Source: Alphaproteobacteria bacterium (GTDB taxonomy: Bacteria > Pseudomonadota > Alphaproteobacteria > Micropepsales > Micropepsaceae). Taken from it: a DNA stretch of 32,276 nucleotides. The notes below the pieces were generated by a model. It saw nothing but the letters and a program-made list of their open reading frames with translations, was not told where the DNA came from and did no database searches. A program made the translations under genes and the position numbers. The stretch's first letter is position 1; the number at the start of each line of letters is the position of its first letter. Below, in pieces: positions 15,247 through 32,276 of the stretch. The stretch lies in contig JANXXU010000050.1 of NCBI GenBank assembly GCA_025350465.1, positions 1 through 32,276 on the forward strand. Reading direction: 5' to 3'.

Positions 15247-16473
15247 TCAGAGCTTGACGATCTGCCAGCCTAGCTTTTTCAACTGCGCCTCAGCCGTCGG
15301 CGAGACATGCGCCGTAGTCGCAAAGATCGGATTGGACCCAGCGCTACGCTTGCCGATATCGGCACTCATCTCGCTGAAAGCATGAGACGCGATTTCGGTC
15401 CACACCACCTCGTCGAACGGAAAGACCGCGACGAAGTCGCCCTTCTTGTCGCGATTGATGGCAAAGCCCGATACGATTTCGAAAGACGCCAGAGTCCCCA
15501 AGCGCGCATTCTCCTTGGCCATCAATTCGACGCGATAACGCTGAAATTTAGCCACGTCCGCGCTTTCCGCGGCTGCCGCGCGGGCGATGAAGGCGCCGCT
15601 GTCTTTGGCGTTGAGCGTCGTGAGCGCGTCGGCGATCGCCAATTGATCCGCGGGCGAATAGGCGCTGTTGGCGATGAATGCCTTCGACTGGTCGTCGCCG
15701 ACGCCGAGCGCCTTCAGCCTAGCGCGAACGACGCCGACAATCTCCGCCGAACTCTTGTCGCGCAACGGTTGCGACAGCGTGCTCGCCGTCGAGGCAGTCG
15801 ACACGGCAATCCCCGCGCCGCCCGGAATTGCCGAATAAGCCGCGCTTATCGAGATGTCGCCAAGGGCCATCATCTGGGCGACGCCGTTGAGGCCCTCCGC
15901 TAGCGGCGGGAATTCGGAATAGGGGTCAACGCCGAGACTGAACGCGAGCTCGCGCTTTGCCTTCTGGATACCGGTGACGCTTTCGACCAAGGAATCGCGG
16001 CTCGCCGAATGGTTGTCGATCTCGCTTCCAACTTTGTCGAACATATTAGCCACGCCCGAAACAAAGCGACCTGTCGTCTCGATCGGTGCCGTCACCAGAT
16101 CGCGTCCGAAGCGCAGAGGCGCAAGGCCGGCATTTTTCGCTGCATCGACGAATGCCTTCGTCTTCGACATTTTTTCCAGCGTTTCGACGGCCTGCAGCTC
16201 GTTCAACCGCTCCGACAAAAGCTTGTCGCCGCTCACCTGATAATTTCCGTACGGCGTCTCCAGCGCGAAGAGGTGCATGAAACCGTCGCTGTGCACGGGC
16301 GACTGGACCGTCCAATTGGACCCCGTCGAATGAGCGCCGACGACTTGATCGGCTTTGGCTTCGCTCACTGTTTCGACCGCGGCGGTCCCGGCCGCAACGG
16401 CCGAGCCGGCGAGCGCGAGCGATGTTGCTCCCGCCAAGAATCCGAGTGCGAGACGACGTTTGACGGATGACAT
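15247..16473 (-). CDS. Exported protein of unknown function
   Basis: The 408-residue protein starts with a classical signal peptide (MSSVKRRLALGFLAGATSLA then LAGSAVAA). I cannot assign the mature part to a family. It includes a helical stretch with TAPIETTGRFVSGVANMFDK near residue 125, a glycine/alanine/serine-rich hydrophobic patch (AIPGGAGIAVSTASTAST), and a C-terminal region with ANSAYSPADQLAIADAL. The start at 16473 is supported by GGGGGAGGA seven bases upstream. It is the third minus-strand gene after the ferritin-like/CDGSH protein and the LprI-like microprotein, 136 bp behind the latter, so it may be co-transcribed or have its own promoter. Confidence 0.85.
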   Translation of the reverse strand: MSSVKRRLALGFLAGATSLALAGSAVAAGTAAVETVSEAKADQVVGAHSTGSNWTVQSPVHSDGFMHLFALETPYGNYQVSGDKLLSERLNELQAVETLEKMSKTKAFVDAAKNAGLAPLRFGRDLVTAPIETTGRFVSGVANMFDKVGSEIDNHSASRDSLVESVTGIQKAKRELAFSLGVDPYSEFPPLAEGLNGVAQMMALGDISISAAYSAIPGGAGIAVSTASTASTLSQPLRDKSSAEIVGVVRARLKALGVGDDQSKAFIANSAYSPADQLAIADALTTLNAKDSGAFIARAAAAESADVAKFQRYRVELMAKENARLGTLASFEIVSGFAINRDKKGDFVAVFPFDEVVWTEIASHAFSEMSADIGKRSAGSNPIFATTAHVSPTAEAQLKKLGWQIVKL

Positions 16474-16609
16474 GGCTGATCCTCCCCCTGAGCGATTCCG
16501 CTTCCTTTGGCAAAGCTCCAGGATTCGAAGAGGCGATGCAAGGACGGGCGCGGGCCGGACGGTGAAAAAGAGGTAGATTCCAGCCAGGTTGTGATGGCTA
16601 CGGGCGGCG

Positions 16610-16759
16610 CTAATAGGGTCCGCGCGATTTGATGTCGTCAAGGACGCTCTGCAACACCGCGATCCGCTCGCGGTAGGAGCGGCGCAAGCACCGCACATTG
16701 CCACCACATCGATGGCGCCCGACCAGCCATTCGCGCTGCTCGTCGCGAATTTTGCGCAT
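16610..16759 (-). CDS. LprI-like microprotein (49 residues)
   Basis: The short frame encodes MRKIRDEQREWLVGRHRCGG then NVRCLRRSYRERIAVLQSVL and ends DDIKSRGPY. The QR.WL..R..CG....CL...Y..RI..L pattern is that of the C-terminal segment of the LprI lysozyme-inhibitor family (PF07007), which pairs two cysteines in the periplasm. Here it stands alone with no signal peptide and no upstream half. AGGGAG lies seven bases before the ATG at 16759, and the start is 29 bp after the stop of the ferritin-like/CDGSH gene, so it is probably translated from the same mRNA. The frame is open further upstream (to 16867), but that part lies inside the CDGSH coding region. It could be a decayed LprI gene or a functional cytoplasmic microprotein. 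Confidence 0.65.
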   Translation of the reverse strand: MRKIRDEQREWLVGRHRCGGNVRCLRRSYRERIAVLQSVLDDIKSRGPY

Positions 16760-16788: not shown

Positions 16789-18753
16789 TTAGCGATCCGA
16801 GCGAAATCCGATTGTCAGGTGGCTTCCATCGCAGAACGGCTTGGTCGCCGACGCGCCGCAACGACACAGACGCGCGCTCTCGGTGCGAAACAACGTCCGG
16901 CCGGTGCTGCTGCAGATCTCGACGCTGCCGTTGAGTTGCAGCGGTCCGTTGGTGGTCGGCGTGATTTTCAAGCGCCCGCCACGATCGTCCAACGGGTCGG
17001 ACTCAAGGCCCGCTGGCTCGCCGCTCGCCGAGAATTTCGCCTCGCGATGGCTGTTGTCGCAGAACGGTTTTCTCTTCGATTGGCCGCAGCGGCAGAGTGT
17101 TGCCCGAAACAGAGCGCCCTCGCCCACCAGCTCGACATCCGCGTGAACGGCGTAAGGCCCGTTCTCGCGCACCCTCAAGACATTGACCGCCGGCGCTGGT
17201 TCCTGCGGCTCCCCGTCATGACGCTCGTAAGTGATAGCACCCGACGGACATGTTTGCGCCACCCGGATGATGTGTTCAACGCTTGCCGCTTCCGGATGAA
17301 GCCATTTTCCCGGCGTGTTCGCCTGAAAGACTTGCGGTGCGTCGAGCACGCAATGGCGCGAGTGAATGCAGCGCTGCGTATCGAAGCGGATCGTGATGTC
17401 CTTGCCGTGCGCGACATTGGGATCGTCGCTGGTATCCTGCGACGGCGGCGAGACGCGCGTGCGCACCGCTTCGACCTTTGCCACCTGGTCGACGGCAATG
17501 CTCAAATGTTCTTCAAAACATTCGTGCATCTCGCCGAAGCGTTTCGCCAGTTCGTGCAGCCGTTCGCCTACGCCCGGCAGCGGCACTTTCGCCGCGAGCT
17601 TGTCGGCCGCGCAGCCAAGTTCCGCGGCGCGCTCGCTCAAAATCTGCGCCGCACAGCGCTGGACCAACTGCCCCGCGGAATGCGGCAGCGAAAAGGTAAG
17701 CCCCGCCTTGACGCCTGGCCGCGCGGGATCAAGCGGCAGTAACGTGGCCGCTTCAGCAACGATGCGCATGACATACATAAGTTCGGTTGCCGCCACGGAG
17801 AATTCGACCCTGAGTTCGCGCGGCAACGGCGCGGGCGCGAAGATTTGCGCAAAAACACGCATCGTCAGCGCATAGACCGCATTGCCAAGATCGACAACCT
17901 TCGAGGCCAGCGGCTCGGCAATGCGCGTGACATCGTCTCCGCGCGCTTCGGCGAGCGTGGGATTAGTGGCGGCCAAACGCGCCGGCTCGAACCCAGGCCG
18001 CGCCCGCTTCAGCGCACACAACTCCTCTTTGATCGCTGCAAAGCGGGCGTAGTGCGAGTTATCGCGATGAGCCGGCGCCCCCTCCCCTTGCAAAACGATC
18101 TCTTCGATCGCGCGCTTTGCCGACGCTAGATCGGTTACCTTGAAAAGGCCCGGCAAGCCAAACTCGGCGGCGGTGACCTGAGCCTCGCCGTGACCAACGA
18201 AGACATTCTCTTCGCCGCACTCATCAACCAAGCGCGCTAGGCCGTTGATGGCGCCATGATAGAGATGTCCTTGGCTCACATAGTCTTGCGCCGTCGGCGA
18301 CAAAAGGTCGTCACGCACGGCCCGATGATAATGCGCCTTGTGGTCGAACCCGGCGCCGTCGGCAAGCTCGATGCCTTCGGGGCGTTCGATGTAGAGGAAG
18401 TGATCGATCGTCGCCTCGTTGAACGGCGACAGCTTCATGACGACGTCGGCGGGAAAGCGCCCGGGGCGAACCGGAAACTCCGGCCGCCACAAATGCGGCG
18501 ATGCGCCAACCGATGCGAGAATATTGTTGACGAGCGACAGATGCAGCATCTCTTCGAGTGCGATTTGACGCAACGATCGCCGCCACCCGTCGATAGCCTT
18601 GAGCTCGGCCTCGCTGACGCCCTCGCTCGTGTCGCGCTTCAGCGTCCACATCGCATAGAGATACGAGCACATCACCGTGTGCTCGAACTCTGCCGCCTCA
18701 CATAGGAGATAGAGCAGCTCCTCGCGATCCTGAACGACGATGTCTTCCTGCAT
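16789..18753 (-). CDS. Ferritin-like / 4Fe-4S / double CDGSH iron-sulfur fusion protein
   Basis: This 654-residue protein appears to combine four iron-binding modules. The N terminus (about 1-230) resembles the ferritin-like domain found in VioB/RebD-type proteins, with EAAEFEHTVMCSYLYAMW and ALEEMLHLSLVNNIL carrying candidate metal ligands E22, E68 and H71. A helical middle follows. Residues about 451-512 form a divergent 4Fe-4S mono-cluster domain (Fer4_19 type) with C462, C468 and C502 in RCIHSRHCVLDAPQVF and QTCPSGAITY. Two CDGSH motifs close the protein: CRCGQSKRKPFCDNSH (C554, C556, C565, H569) and CRCGASATKPFCDGSH (C630, C632, C641, H645), each with the 3Cys-1His ligand set for a 2Fe-2S cluster. 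No signal peptide is visible, so it is cytoplasmic. Its exact redox role is unknown. Confidence 0.88.
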   Translation of the reverse strand: MQEDIVVQDREELLYLLCEAAEFEHTVMCSYLYAMWTLKRDTSEGVSEAELKAIDGWRRSLRQIALEEMLHLSLVNNILASVGASPHLWRPEFPVRPGRFPADVVMKLSPFNEATIDHFLYIERPEGIELADGAGFDHKAHYHRAVRDDLLSPTAQDYVSQGHLYHGAINGLARLVDECGEENVFVGHGEAQVTAAEFGLPGLFKVTDLASAKRAIEEIVLQGEGAPAHRDNSHYARFAAIKEELCALKRARPGFEPARLAATNPTLAEARGDDVTRIAEPLASKVVDLGNAVYALTMRVFAQIFAPAPLPRELRVEFSVAATELMYVMRIVAEAATLLPLDPARPGVKAGLTFSLPHSAGQLVQRCAAQILSERAAELGCAADKLAAKVPLPGVGERLHELAKRFGEMHECFEEHLSIAVDQVAKVEAVRTRVSPPSQDTSDDPNVAHGKDITIRFDTQRCIHSRHCVLDAPQVFQANTPGKWLHPEAASVEHIIRVAQTCPSGAITYERHDGEPQEPAPAVNVLRVRENGPYAVHADVELVGEGALFRATLCRCGQSKRKPFCDNSHREAKFSASGEPAGLESDPLDDRGGRLKITPTTNGPLQLNGSVEICSSTGRTLFRTESARLCRCGASATKPFCDGSHLTIGFRSDR

Positions 18754-27605: not shown

Positions 27606-28625
27606 TCAGCGATGATGCTCGAGTTCATAGAGCTCGGAGAGTTCCTGACGACTGAAATGCAAATGCGGCCATAGCGTCAAGAGGGCTGTGCGACCGATTT
27701 TTCGCTCTAGCGCATGGAGTTGCGCGAAATGAGCTTTGTCCTCCGGCGACGCCACTTGCTTCTCGCCTTTTTCCCGCGCGAGCAGCATTTGTTCGGCGCG
27801 CAGCACAAGTTCGGTGTGCAGCTGGAGATAGCTGAATATTTCGGCGACGTGTTCTGCATCGAATTTGTTGGCGAGGTCGCTGACGAACCTTCCGGCTTCG
27901 CTGTGCACAAATTCTCCGCTGCGAAGGTCGTCGAGCAGGTGCTCGTGGTTCTCATAGTCGGTGAGGAGCCATTTGTGGATCGCCTGCTCGCTTTTGGCAA
28001 AGACCAGGAACATGGTCACCGGCAGAACGACGAGCGTTGCCAGCGTTGCCGTCAGCGGCGCGTTGGGAAAATGATTAAAGGCCGAATGCAAGATGATCGC
28101 AACGCCGAGCCCCGGCAAATAATAAAGCCATCTGAATCGCGAGTGCCGTTCCGTCAACGATTGGGCCAGCACGCCGAAGATCGCAGTCGTGCCGCCGTGC
28201 ATCAACGCGGTGCCGAAGCCGCGGATCACCCACACGCCGATATTGGCTTGCGGAAACGAATAAAGAACATAAACATTCTCCACGAGCGCGAAGCCCGTGC
28301 CGACGGCGAAGCCTATGATTGCTGCATCGACCATGAAGCCGACGTGACTGCGCGAAAAAAGATAGATCAGAATGCCGGCTTTAAGGCTCTCCTCGACCAC
28401 CGGCGCGACATAGCGCGAGTAGGTGAGGAAATCGGTGTGCAGCAAATCCATCGCGTAGCCGTTCAGGCTGTAGGACGCGATGGCGAGCGCTCCACCGCCG
28501 GCGATGGTCAACCCGATCGTGTACAGGCTGACGAGCCGGAAGCTGTCGAGATGCTGCAACACCATGAGGAAGACGACGACCGGCCCCAACCCAATCGGTA
28601 CTTCCAGGAGGAACTGAAAGAACAT
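27606..28625 (-). CDS. PrsW-family intramembrane metalloprotease
   Basis: The 339-residue protein has an N-terminal polytopic domain of about 7-8 membrane helices and a cytoplasmic C-terminal helical tail of about 130 residues. The PrsW signatures are present: EESLKAG (E78, E79, K82), GFALVEN with E116, HGGTTAIFG with H143, and LHSAFNHF with H180 and H185. PrsW-type enzymes (CAAX-protease relatives) cleave membrane-bound regulators such as anti-sigma factors. The C-terminal tail (rich in His, Glu and Leu, ending ELYELEHHR) is longer than in most members. It lies 22 bp downstream of the large peptidase/propeller/barrel gene on the same strand, so the two are probably co-transcribed. No anti-sigma factor gene is next to it. 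Confidence 0.85.
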   Translation of the reverse strand: MFFQFLLEVPIGLGPVVVFLMVLQHLDSFRLVSLYTIGLTIAGGGALAIASYSLNGYAMDLLHTDFLTYSRYVAPVVEESLKAGILIYLFSRSHVGFMVDAAIIGFAVGTGFALVENVYVLYSFPQANIGVWVIRGFGTALMHGGTTAIFGVLAQSLTERHSRFRWLYYLPGLGVAIILHSAFNHFPNAPLTATLATLVVLPVTMFLVFAKSEQAIHKWLLTDYENHEHLLDDLRSGEFVHSEAGRFVSDLANKFDAEHVAEIFSYLQLHTELVLRAEQMLLAREKGEKQVASPEDKAHFAQLHALERKIGRTALLTLWPHLHFSRQELSELYELEHHR

Positions 28626-28647: not shown

Positions 28648-31587
28648 TCACAGGATCTTCAGCGAGATCATCCACTCGTCGCTGTGCAGCGCGCGGCCCT
28701 CAAACCCAGCCGCATAGCCGATGGAGAACGTCATCGGCAGGCGATGCGCCAACGTGAAGTTCAAATCGATCTGCGCGCCGACCGTGCCGAGCATGCGCTC
28801 CGTCGAATTGCTGCCCGGATCGACCCACAGCATGCCGGCGAAGACCGCCGGACGCAGCGATCCGAGATAGAGCGTCGGCGTGCCGACATCTTCAAAGCGG
28901 ATCGGCGGCAAATTCCATTCGCCGATTGCCCTGACGAAGTCGCGCGCGGCGATCTCATCGATGTCGAAGCCCGGGAACGTGTCGAATTCGCGATAGCGCT
29001 TGGTCTCTTTGTCGTCGAGGACGTTGTTCTTGAAGCCGCCGAAATAGAAATAGGTGAGCGCGTCGTTGCGCTCGCCGCCGGCGGCCCCCGCCGCGCTGTA
29101 GAGCCAGAGCGAGGAGTGCGCCCAATCGAGCGGAAAGCCGAAATTCAAGCCGCCGTGCACTTGGGGGTGATTCTCGGATTTCGCGTAGTCGTTGCTGACC
29201 GCCAGGTCCCATTGATAGCCGGTCTCGTGATCGACCGAGCCTTGCGACTTGTTCGTGTCGGTGAAGTTCAGCGCGAGGCTCGTCGAAAATATGTCCTTGG
29301 CCGACGCCGGCACGTTCTGACTGCCGGGCAGAGTGTCGAGGCCCGTGTAGTAGGCTACGTCGGCGACCACATCGAGCTGACGCGGGACATCGTAGATCAG
29401 CGCCTTCTTGTATTCGCCCATCACCGCGTCACCTTTGCGGCTGCGCTCGGTCGGGCCGAAGAGATCGTAAAAGTCGGCGTCGTTGTGCCAATAGCGTAGA
29501 TACCAGCTGATCGTGTGATACTCGACGTTGAAGTGCCAGCGCTCCGCCGCGCGCGCTTCGTCTGGCGAGTAGGAAAGTGTCCCATAGAGGCGGCTGAACT
29601 GCATCGGGTCTTCGATGATCGCGTGCCAGCCGTACGCGGGGTGGCTCTTGTAACCTTCGATCACAGGATAGGTCGCCGAAAGGCGCATCTCCTGCGACGG
29701 CACGTAGACGCCGCCGCGATTGGTGATGAGACTATCGAGCGGAATGCGTGCGGGCGAACCGACGGCGTAGGTCTTGACGATCGGATGGGCCTTCACGACC
29801 TCGTTGCCGAGAAACTTGATCGTACCTAAATCGGTCAGCGGCTTGGGCTCGATCACGACGGGCATGAATCCCTGCCCCGTGTATTCAAAGGCGATGAGCG
29901 AGCCGTCGGCGCGCGGGATCGGGTGAAAGAAGCCCGTGACCGCATTGCTCACCGCTTCGGTTTTGCCCGTCAGAATCTCATAGCGATAGATATTGGAAAC
30001 GCCGGTGTAATAGGCGCTGCCGTAGAGATAGCGCCCGTCGGGCGAGAAGACGAAACCTTCGGGCACCGACGAGCCGAAACTAAACTGCGAAATTTCCTTG
30101 GCGCTGCCGGCGAGAAGATCGCTCAAGCGGAAGACGCGCACCGACTGATCGCCGTTGACCTTGCCGACGGAGGCCGACAGCAACTCGCCGTCGGGCGAAA
30201 TGTCGAGGTCGAACGGCACTTCGCCATAGGCCCAGGTGTGCACTTGGTTCCAGCTGTCATAGGGCGCCGGCATGCGCACCAAGGTCACAAAGCCGTTGAG
30301 GTGACGCAAACCCCAGAGCGAGCGATCCTTCGGGTTGAACACGAGGTCGCCGATGCGCGCATCCTCGAGCACCATCTTCTTCTCGCCCGTCGCAATGTCG
30401 ATCTCCATCACATCGCGATAGGCGTAATTGTCCGTCGTGTACCAGGCCTTGTTGCTCTCGGGATCGTAGGCGAGCGACGTCACCTTGTAGAGCATCGGTC
30501 CTTTGATGTCGGTCAAGCGGCGGATCGTGCCGTCGCGCACGGACATATCGCCGATATGGGCGATGACGCCCGGATAACGAATGCCGCCGATCAAGCTCTG
30601 CGTCTTGGGATTGAAATAAGCGCGCGAGACCGAACCCAAGCCCGTCGCGGCAAGTTTCTGCGTCGGCGTCGCCGGATATTGCTGAACCGATTGCAGATTC
30701 TCGCGCTGAAACTTGTGCTCCCATTCGATCCATTCGGCCCACACACTGTCGAGCGATTGGCCGTAGACACGCTCAAAGTCGTCGGAATAATAGCGCCGGC
30801 TCCCCTCCGGGCGCTTCAGCCATTCGATGAGTTTTTCCGGCGAGCGCGTGAGCGCGAGGTAGCTGATGAAGCGCGTGCCGTAGAGATAGGCGTTCACGCC
30901 GCCCTGGAAGTCGACGAACACGCCTTCCGACTCGAGACCGAGCGGATCGAAGAATTCGGCGTTGTCGCGCACCATGGCGCGAAACACCATCTCGTCGTAG
31001 CCGCCTTGCGCGCGACCGAGGCCGCCACCCATCCAGGTCTCAAAGAAGACGGCGCTGCCCTCGAGCAGCCAGCGCGGTACGTTCACGCGCGGCGTCGTCA
31101 GGTAATTGTAGAGAATGGTCTCGGGATGCTGCTCGATCGGGTGCGGCTTGCCGTGAAAGAAATTGCGCCACCACGCGTCTTCCTGGTTCCAGGCGTCCAT
31201 GGTGGCGACGTGAACCGGCTCGTGGTTCATCAGCGTGAAGATGCGCTCGCCCGCCGAAAAGGTTTCGAACGACTGATTCAAGGGCGCGATGTCGACGATC
31301 ACGGAATTGTTGGGCGAGGCGCGCGCCGCCGCGTTGCCGTAATCCGAGAGATCCTTGAGCAGGAGCGTCGTCTTCTCCCACGGCTTCCATTCGAAGATCT
31401 TTTTTTGAAACTCGAGAGAATTGAGGAAACTACGTGCGACGTAAGGGGCCAAATAGGTCTCGGGCGGATCGAAATAGAGCAAGTCGAGATCGTCGGTCTC
31501 GAGCCTGTTCATTTCGAGCTCGTCAGCCAGGGCCGTGCCACCCACGAGGGCCAGCATCAGCGCCAGACACGCGACAGGCGCACGCAT
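28648..31587 (-). CDS. Exported HExxH peptidase / beta-propeller / outer-membrane barrel-like protein
   Basis: The 979-residue protein has a signal peptide (MRAPVACLALMLALVGGTAL then A). Residues about 25-300 are a gluzincin-like (peptidase MA type) domain: H122-E123-P-V-H126 is an HExxH zinc motif, and E176 in PRWLLEGSAVFFE, 50 residues later, fits the third ligand. Residues about 310-640 contain TolB/WD40-like blades (LAYDPESNKAWYTTDN; FDLDISPDGELLSASVG; EGFVFSPDGRYLYGSAYYTG). The last 300 or so residues alternate polar and aromatic residues (SIGYAAGFEGRALHSDEWMI at the end) like an outer-membrane beta-barrel. It would be cell-surface or periplasmic. GAGGGGGG precedes the ATG at 31587. The 590-codon open frame on the other strand is a shadow. 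Confidence 0.8.
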   Translation of the reverse strand: MRAPVACLALMLALVGGTALADELEMNRLETDDLDLLYFDPPETYLAPYVARSFLNSLEFQKKIFEWKPWEKTTLLLKDLSDYGNAAARASPNNSVIVDIAPLNQSFETFSAGERIFTLMNHEPVHVATMDAWNQEDAWWRNFFHGKPHPIEQHPETILYNYLTTPRVNVPRWLLEGSAVFFETWMGGGLGRAQGGYDEMVFRAMVRDNAEFFDPLGLESEGVFVDFQGGVNAYLYGTRFISYLALTRSPEKLIEWLKRPEGSRRYYSDDFERVYGQSLDSVWAEWIEWEHKFQRENLQSVQQYPATPTQKLAATGLGSVSRAYFNPKTQSLIGGIRYPGVIAHIGDMSVRDGTIRRLTDIKGPMLYKVTSLAYDPESNKAWYTTDNYAYRDVMEIDIATGEKKMVLEDARIGDLVFNPKDRSLWGLRHLNGFVTLVRMPAPYDSWNQVHTWAYGEVPFDLDISPDGELLSASVGKVNGDQSVRVFRLSDLLAGSAKEISQFSFGSSVPEGFVFSPDGRYLYGSAYYTGVSNIYRYEILTGKTEAVSNAVTGFFHPIPRADGSLIAFEYTGQGFMPVVIEPKPLTDLGTIKFLGNEVVKAHPIVKTYAVGSPARIPLDSLITNRGGVYVPSQEMRLSATYPVIEGYKSHPAYGWHAIIEDPMQFSRLYGTLSYSPDEARAAERWHFNVEYHTISWYLRYWHNDADFYDLFGPTERSRKGDAVMGEYKKALIYDVPRQLDVVADVAYYTGLDTLPGSQNVPASAKDIFSTSLALNFTDTNKSQGSVDHETGYQWDLAVSNDYAKSENHPQVHGGLNFGFPLDWAHSSLWLYSAAGAAGGERNDALTYFYFGGFKNNVLDDKETKRYREFDTFPGFDIDEIAARDFVRAIGEWNLPPIRFEDVGTPTLYLGSLRPAVFAGMLWVDPGSNSTERMLGTVGAQIDLNFTLAHRLPMTFSIGYAAGFEGRALHSDEWMISLKIL

Positions 31588-31655: not shown

Positions 31656-31688
31656 AAAAAAAAAGCCACCCGCCGTTGAGCAGGTGGC
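31656..31688 (-). terminator. Rho-independent terminator for the GHEAL-repeat gene
   Basis: On the minus strand GCCACC pairs with GGTGGC (a 6-bp stem, extended by one further G-C pair past a mismatch) and is followed by nine T residues (31664 down to 31656). It lies 26 bp after the stop codon of the repeat protein, so it should end that transcript before the peptidase gene. Confidence 0.88.
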
Positions 31689-31714
31689 CCAGTGATGAAA
31701 ATGTGTCTAGGCGA

Positions 31715-32276
31715 TTACTGCCCCTGTTGCATCGCGTTGGCCATGCTGCCGTCGCGCAGAGCGGCGGCAAAGCTCGGGTTCTGCGCCAGCGCCAGGAATG
31801 CGGCCTGATGGGAGAGCGCCGTGAAGGCCGCTCCATCACGCGCCAGGGCATTCATCGCCTTCGCGTTGTGTGCAAGCGCTTCGAACGCCGCGGGGTTTTG
31901 CGCCATGGCGGTCAGCGCTGCCGGCTCGTGCGAGAGGGCATTGAAGGCCTGCGGATAGTTGGCGATCGCATTGGCAACAATACCCTGCGCCTGACCCAGC
32001 GCCTCATGACCCAGCGCCTCATGACCCAGCGCCTCATGACCCAGCGCCTCATGACCCAGCGCCTCGTGACCCAGCGCCTCGTGACCCAGCGCCTCGTGAC
32101 CCAGCGCCTCGTGACCAAGCGCCTCGTGACCCAGCGCCTCGTGACCAAGCGCCTCGTGACCGAGTGCCTCGTGCCCGAGTGCCTCGTGACCCAGCGCCTC
32201 GTGACCTAGTGCCTCGTGACCCAGCGCCTCGTGACCCAGTGCCTCGTGACCGAGTGCCTCGTGACCGAGTGCCTCG
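31715..32276 (-). CDS. GHEAL pentapeptide-repeat protein, C-terminal part (runs off the right edge)
   Basis: The minus-strand frame ending with TAA at 31715 is open to the window edge, so the start lies outside. It encodes at least 18 consecutive Gly-His-Glu-Ala-Leu units (31997-32266, plus part of another), then GQAQGIVANAIANYPQAFNA and a degenerate series of about ten residues each: PAALTAMAQN, PAAFEALAHN, AKAMNALARD, GAAFTALSHQ, AFLALAQN, PSFAAALRDG. It ends SMANAMQQGQ. The pentads have a regular histidine every fifth residue. No family is recognised; a helical solenoid, a metal-binding (His/Glu-rich) rod or a filament are all possible. A strong terminator follows. Callers that require a start inside the window would report only 63 residues, or a wrong frame of Arg-Trp-Val repeats. 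Confidence 0.85.
   Translation of the reverse strand, partial: EALGHEALGHEALGHEALGHEALGHEALGHEALGHEALGHEALGHEALGHEALGHEALGHEALGHEALGHEALGHEALGHEALGHEALGHEALGQAQGIVANAIANYPQAFNALSHEPAALTAMAQNPAAFEALAHNAKAMNALARDGAAFTALSHQAAFLALAQNPSFAAALRDGSMANAMQQGQ
31997..32276. repeat. 15-bp tandem repeat (18 full units plus a partial)
   Basis: The plus-strand unit is CAGCGCCTCATGACC, with units starting at 31997, 32012, 32027 and every 15 bp up to 32267. Units 1-4 are identical; units 5-8 differ only in ATG to GTG. Units 9-18 vary further (AAG, GAG or TAG in place of CAG; TGC for CGC; CCC for ACC). In the minus-strand reading frame these are CTG/CTT/CTC/CTA, GCG/GCA, CAT/CAC and GGT/GGG, all synonymous. 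The array continues past the right edge. Confidence 0.97.

Follow-up and report, generated by a model that had tools for sequence, protein, structure and literature searches.

A membrane-anchored protein with replaceable tandem repeats, encoded in a module with an HExxH protein and a PrsW-family protease

The window analyzed here (the whole stretch of DNA, 32,276 nucleotides) is an entire contig (C42) of a 4.06 Mb genome in 52 contigs, and its right end is a contig break within a repeat. At this end the minus strand encodes an array of GHEAL units (31997-32276), delimited by translation, codon comparison and Tandem Repeats Finder (19.0 copies of 15 bp, 94% matches). It consists of a partial unit, EAL, truncated by the contig end, and 18 complete units without interruption, in agreement with the at least 18 units counted earlier in a sequence-only reading of this DNA. 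The remainder of the interval described in that reading (31715-31996) is not GHEAL: it holds a C-terminal tail of degenerate units of 10-11 residues such as NPAAFEALAHN (31718-31996, minus strand; 63% identical to the sister species G001), followed by a stop codon (31715-31717). Together these form the 3' part of a repeat-protein gene, 186 codons and then TAA (31715-32275, minus strand).

The 5' part lies elsewhere in the assembly. A pattern search of the whole genome located GHEAL at one further place, the end of contig C37 (L009:9763-10299), where an open reading frame starts with MNYEAMLKD and continues with one hydrophobic stretch (a membrane helix), TSGTIVSAERYHSSQVTDADVGLGNQDVAQLMQTDTFELM, degenerate NPxxFxxLA-like units and eight more complete GHEAL units, one of which carries a synonymous difference. 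A single uninterrupted 521-residue frame of G002 (same genus) is matched both by the N-terminal part (60% identity) and by the C-terminal part (55%). Since both match one frame, the C37 and C42 pieces are very probably a single gene cut by the assembly. The array would then contain at least 26 complete GHEAL units (18 plus 8, counted on either side of the gap between C37 and C42). The start of the gene, sought beyond the contig, is thus found, and the C37 half stays open, so that the frame is not broken just outside the window. The earlier proposal of a real protein in the GHEAL frame stands as well; neither half reaches the cut-off of any Pfam or NCBIfam model.

The gene order is repeat protein, terminator-like hairpin, HExxH protein of about 980 residues (the partner) and PrsW intramembrane protease. 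The hairpin, which resembles an intrinsic terminator and has a T run, lies between the repeat and partner genes (31663-31690, minus strand), where two overlapping sites are predicted against 0.5 expected from shuffles. Of 23 loci, 18 have a similar hairpin 3' of the repeat gene, with energies of -17.8 to -25.6 kcal/mol; by our rule it is absent from the other five, of which L039 and L046 have little sequence before the contig end.

In the window the partner has 979 residues (28648-31587, minus strand) and is composed of a signal-like helix, an HExxH peptidase-like part, a TolB-like propeller and C-terminal strands. The motif reads HEPVH (residues 122-126; 31210-31224, minus strand), and HExxH is present in all 14 aligned copies and in all 14 further ones. 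The window protein is 53-80% identical to the 13 other aligned copies, and H122, E123, H126, E176, E183 and the ending SLKI are invariant in all 14. No Pfam or NCBIfam model, peptidase models included, matches the partner at its cut-off. In the AlphaFold model (mean pLDDT 54 overall) residues from about 319 to 580 fold into a propeller, where local confidence is mostly fair to good, and 16 strands lie at 635-978, whereas the HExxH part falls below pLDDT 50; going by this model, the strands at 635-978 form a probable outer-membrane barrel. Foldseek gives TolB as the best match of the model (E 1.2e-9, query TM-score 0.19), and sequence profiles match TolB weakly (E 0.005-0.02). At L043:9080-12094 the partner is split into two frames by one TAG, either a sequencing error or a pseudogene.

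The third gene (27606-28625, minus strand; 339 residues) encodes a PrsW-family intramembrane protease (Pfam PF13367, E 1.4e-18; 67.6 bits against a cut-off of 23.5), although it stays below the NCBIfam PrsW equivalog (21.5 against 225 bits). Its motifs EExxK, FxxxEN and HxxxN are present in 14 of 14 aligned copies. Where at least 1 kb of sequence remains beyond the partner, a PrsW gene follows it in 26 of 27 loci; the exception is L050, where it was not found in the 1.3 kb after the partner.

The repeat protein itself begins with a conserved N-terminal module: one membrane helix, the motif GTIV.AERY and degenerate decamers, after which the array follows. Given the positive residues before the helix and the single hydrophobic stretch, we infer an inner-membrane anchor with a cytoplasmic N-terminus and a periplasmic array. 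From the GT motif to the stop codon the protein measures 231-463 residues (mean 369, s.d. 60; 19 closed genes) despite differing unit lengths. L119 falls outside this range, with about 100 residues of a (DKS)n array after the motif, which argues against a fixed length; at this locus (L119:1-1477, genome G703) the short protein lies between the anti-sigma gene and the partner, and the partner match is partial and contains a stop. In 20 of 24 rows of the comparison the net charge does not exceed about 5 per 100 residues in either direction, the exceptions including GHEAL (-10.8 per 100 residues, with His taken as neutral), L045 (-10.4) and L049 (-8.4). Prediction of the pentad structure, proposed earlier, was carried out (single-sequence AlphaFold) and yields nothing firm, with a mean pLDDT of 55.8 and residues 1-59 below 50. 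The pentapeptide-repeat family, whose pattern is A(D/N)LXX, has the five-residue period in common with the window array, but GHEAL does not fit this pattern and the relatives have other periods. Because the pentapeptide-repeat profile gives zero matches for either half in a Pfam scan at E up to 1, a pentapeptide beta-helix was rejected.

Within the array the differences between units are confined to silent positions. The GHEAL units of the window depart from the consensus 16 times, always at codon position 3, and the six distinct variant codons are all synonymous; over the 26 complete units of both contig ends there are 23 differences, again all at third positions (6 of 6 distinct variant codons synonymous). 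The earlier statement that every difference between units is synonymous is therefore confirmed, and the variant codons it named are correct. Only distinct variant codons were counted, since copies made by slippage are not independent. The expected synonymous share of random substitutions in a GHEAL unit is 27% (flat) to 33% (transition-weighted), and the chance of 6 out of 6 is about 0.0004 to 0.0014 (our own arithmetic); taken alone, the GHEAL codon pattern is moderate evidence for selection on the peptide. In the sister genome G001 the unit is AAEGLAAQGR; its copies show 105 differences, and every one of the 24 distinct variant codons is synonymous (a probability of about 1e-12 under a simple binomial, again our arithmetic). 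One stretch among the 22 units of G001 was perhaps counted twice (by eye, some 115 bases appear to be the same at the two contig ends), which leaves the number of distinct variant codons unraised. Among 22 array pieces examined, the 20 with enough comparable codons have a pN/pS between neighbouring units of 0 to 0.29, where the ratios are rough as synonymous sites are near saturation in several rows, and where L041 (zero comparable codon pairs) and L039 (3 pairs) stand outside the range. Protein-level constraint inside the arrays is thus general across the repeat-protein family. It might be argued that the array is a neutral minisatellite within a gene, uniform through recent expansion alone, given that GHEAL has few distinct variants (six) and that slippage copies are not independent. 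The codon data of G001 (24 of 24 synonymous) together with pN/pS of at most 0.29 in all 20 usable pieces led us to set this explanation aside as exceedingly improbable.

Between genomes the observations are of another kind. Compared with the window genome, the sister G001 is 79% identical in the N-terminal part and 63% in the tail, and the array in between is AAEGLAAQGR (seen at both G001 contig ends), not GHEAL. The GHEAL DNA pattern, present in the window's own genome, occurs in none of the 40 relatives searched; the nearest species found has AAEGLAAQGR in the orthologous gene instead. Selection on the peptide, as claimed in the sequence-only reading, thus stands within the array (synonymous-only codons, low pN/pS) and does not extend to GHEAL itself as a preserved sequence (0 of 40 relatives). 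That reading had also held that non-synonymous differences between units of related strains would count against it, and between species (GHEAL against AAEGLAAQGR) this is nearly what is seen.

Units in the orthologues range from 3 to 10 residues. Behind the N-terminal module we found decamers such as NAKAFEAMAR (G002, G005, G007, G009), SQAA- and SNAA-type arrays (G014, G094, G052), a SAAKAAAD array (G065) and arrays of period 8 with a composition like that of G065 (G066, G083), as well as nonamers such as SEAFRSAMN (L042, L043, L046). Other loci have RDPAFSGLL (L044), ANADFANLM (L045), NDANFRSAL (L047), NVRSNLND (L049) or NGGGLST (L052). Upstream of further partner genes the units are NPQAFAAMAS, NDAFRNAMA, SNPLFAEAM, SDAFRDALR, NDAFQDALR, QHPQAFEVMA, SDAFRNALE and the short (DKS)n. 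Many orthologous arrays have uneven units (G002, G007, G009, L050). Decamers of the PQAFxxMA type occur in both alpha- and gammaproteobacterial lineages, and similar units border GHEAL on both sides; the window tail contains LSHEPAALTAM. Given this occurrence and flanking position, the decamers look ancestral and GHEAL a later takeover, and GHEAL probably derives from the older decamer type that still borders the array, to judge by the likeness of the units. Amino-acid changes are purged within arrays, and between lineages the whole unit is replaced.

Of 96 genomes of the order, 12 contain the gene according to a profile of the N-terminal module. This N-terminal module occurs in 17 named records, all of them metagenome assemblies, from Alphaproteobacteria, Gammaproteobacteria (Lysobacterales/Xanthomonadales, Halieaceae and unplaced) and Burkholderiales. 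Its presence is tied to that of the partner: among the 96 genomes 11 have both, one has each alone and 83 have neither (Fisher p 1.6e-12), and in the two single-gene genomes (G009 and G081) the gene lies beside a contig end. The partner is also present in 10 of the 11 genomes reached from repeat genes (G511 is without it) and in 14 of 299 genomes of the order to which the L047 genome belongs, 7 of these 14 overlapping with the genomes reached from repeat genes. In a scan of 398 genomes across the phylum three match: the genome of the window itself and two others in which the match is distant and confined to the peptidase part. Upstream of these distant relatives (L102:1468-3918, E 1.6e-22; L101:3-1847, E 7.9e-25) the genes seen are unrelated to the repeat protein. 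In a tree built from 24 partner proteins, the 11 alpha copies are split from the 13 gamma copies with 100/100 support; left out were L117 (by the motif filter, as it reads HELVHL), G066, L110 (TAG-split) and the fragments L112 and L119. No viral relatives were confirmed when the N-terminal part was compared with viral contigs, and no plasmid relatives of the 979-residue partner were found. Four of five proteins compared with a defence-system library have no match; a weak match of the L047 repeat protein (E 2.6e-5, no single stretch) was taken as a low-complexity effect. No description of the module was found in the open-licence literature, judged by title and the start of the abstract.

In 10 gammaproteobacterial and Burkholderiales loci the repeat gene is preceded by homologues of a SpoIIE-GAF phosphatase, an ATPase, a STAS protein and an ECF sigma factor (identities from Pfam on the L047 proteins), and an anti-sigma factor is common to nine of these loci. 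Given that the module genes stand behind this set, the gamma module is probably induced on a signal. The set was not found beside the alpha genes, and the anti-sigma factor has no match in the window genome; weak matches occur elsewhere in 2 of 11 genomes of the window's genus. All nine anti-sigma factors (L038, L042-L044, L046-L050) have an invariant GT shortly after the hydrophobic stretch, which resembles the GTIV of the repeat protein and is possibly a common site for a protease or partner. A common origin of the two membrane segments was rejected, as hhalign aligns nine columns around the GT motif with a probability of 30%; the likeness is accordingly claimed for the motif only. At L052:5838-6884 one frame runs without a stop through a short anti-sigma-like part and on into the repeat protein; an ATG in between makes two adjacent genes as likely as a fusion.

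Several known systems bear comparison. The multiple banded antigen (MBA) of Ureaplasma, as described in PMC3511179, has a conserved N-terminal domain with a membrane segment and a tandem unit that varies by serovar, and its arrays break assemblies; the locus keeps a store of units, which recombination exchanges within a strain, the product being a surface lipoprotein antigen of a host-associated organism. The repeat protein of the module likewise combines a conserved membrane-anchored N-terminus with exchangeable tandem units. However, the window genome shows no second copy of the anchor (by profile) or of GHEAL (by pattern), the window protein is without lipobox-type evidence, and a dedicated protease module lies 3' of the repeat gene. 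MBA may be seen as the nearest case in evolutionary behaviour, by analogy and not by membership. TolA is anchored in the membrane and has a long periplasmic part of low complexity, and the module would recall TolA/TolB in layout in that an anchored low-complexity repeat protein stands beside a protein with a TolB-like propeller. Here, too, the likeness does not amount to membership: the propeller belongs to a 979-residue protein that also has HExxH and a probable barrel, the repeat-like tail of the window protein has no Pfam match to the TolA C-terminal domain, and neither TolQ nor TolR was recognised among the shared neighbours listed. In the PrsW-linked toxin systems (PMC3482391) toxin domains are joined to PrsW in one protein, mostly in Gram-positive bacteria, whereas the PrsW of the module is a separate gene and a toxin domain was not found in the module proteins scanned. 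We conclude that the repeat protein is an anchored protein with replaceable repeats, in a module for which no open-licence description was found.

As to its role, the one His and one Glu in every five residues of the window array had suggested a ladder of metal or proton ligands. As a family property this does not hold: His is absent from the G001 array and rare in all others, several orthologous arrays have almost zero charged residues, and the partner genes are the same throughout. With no His in the sister array we set the ladder aside as a family function and give it next to no weight; His may yet have a role in the window species alone. Alternatively, the arrays might coat the outside of the cell as an exported fibre or matrix, with PrsW freeing the repeat protein and the barrel or peptidase exporting or maturing it. 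A PrsW with catalytic-type motifs and a barrel-like partner do occur in one module, the terminator suggests a high relative expression, and units are replaced fast, a trait shared with surface proteins like the Ureaplasma antigen. Nonetheless, a signal-peptidase-type site is not seen after the helix and the barrel is read from a weak model (the mean pLDDT of 54 given above), and we consider a fibre unlikely.

The decamers and nonamers could also be short helices, capped by NP or DP, that bind hydrophobic segments such as those of outer-membrane protein precursors, in the manner of an STI1-like chaperone. The NP/DP-spaced short helical units of several orthologues indeed recall the DP-type repeats of STI1/HOP (PF17830), with scores that are specific to the direction of the sequence: Pfam STI1-HOP_DP matches 5 of 10 repeat proteins scanned (E up to 0.05), of which two pass the curated cut-off (L044 with 61.6 bits, L113 with 42.5), the related XPC-binding model matches 2 of 10, and three reversed proteins give zero such matches. 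The profile of the N-terminal module also has a marginal match to the STI1 structure 2llw (E 0.31). Against this, the scores are sums over repeats and single stretches never pass alone, the window halves (E 0.034 and 0.027; 14.5 and 14.8 bits) stay below the cut-off of 29.1, and many orthologues lack the motif: the GHEAL, AAEGLAAQGR, SNAA, SQAA, SAAKAAAD and NGGGLST arrays lack NP/DP caps, and hydrophobic residues are scarce in some of them. Other Pfam matches of the arrays (DUF826, RHH_1, Plasmodium_HRP etc.) were rejected as composition effects, which are also seen in reversed proteins, and the same caution extends to the STI1 matches. All in all a chaperone seems rather improbable. We give still less credence to a precursor of many short species-specific peptides excised by the neighbouring proteases. 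Identical units under purifying selection in G000 and G001, the species-specific units and the two adjoining protease genes would suit it, but where the units are uneven, as in the orthologous arrays listed above, a single peptide would not be released.

Tentatively, and with somewhat less than even confidence, we favour a repeat protein that serves as an abundant periplasmic spacer or filler of the envelope, processed by the proteases of the module, in which length and composition count more than the exact sequence. This spacer role is suggested by the same gene carrying different units, by purifying selection within arrays and by the tied presence of anchor and partner, as well as by the frequency of PrsW (26 of 27 loci) and of the terminator (18 of 23), the length range (231-463 residues) and the charge balance (20 of 24). 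Speaking against it are the charge of GHEAL, L045 and L049, the length of L119, the five loci without a terminator, the missing PrsW of L050, and the absence of the regulatory set beside the alpha genes and of an anti-sigma match in the window genome. By slippage or unequal exchange a short stretch of the old array would take over the whole array, after which amino-acid changes in the new unit would be disfavoured. The terminator 3' of the repeat gene might lead to more repeat protein than protease; the barrel-anchored peptidase may hold or trim the outer end of the array, and PrsW could cut close to the membrane, with the juxtamembrane GTIV motif as a possible site. In a more specific form, which is possible but which we would not call probable, the gene encodes a membrane-anchored, polymer-like envelope protein selected for bulk properties, with a unit that can be rewritten (3 to 10 residues; Ala/Ser, Gly/Asn and His/Glu types) while the partners remain unchanged, each new unit then being frozen by purifying selection within the genome.

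Orthologues in the same place with unrelated units would amount to a natural experiment on the extent to which a protein can diverge in a constant setting, and bulk properties of the array (length, composition, flexibility) as the selected trait become testable. The module also presents an envelope protease pair with a dedicated repetitive partner, which in the gamma lineage is linked to a SpoIIE/STAS partner switch and an ECF sigma factor. Repeat genes of this kind break assemblies, and they are hard to find by profile since only a short anchor is conserved.

Some other genes on the two contigs deserve mention in their own right. On C37 (L009:4829-7804, minus strand) a 992-residue frame has an M32 carboxypeptidase in its second half (Pfam E 1.4e-148) and a sub-threshold ATP-grasp match in its first (E 9e-4); the sister orthologue has 990 residues (L031:11523-14492). 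Within the window, a 486-residue frame (15247-16707, minus strand) has zero Pfam matches at E up to 0.001, and a 654-residue protein (16789-18753, minus strand) combines a ferritin-like part with a divergent 4Fe-4S part and two CDGSH iron-sulfur fingers.
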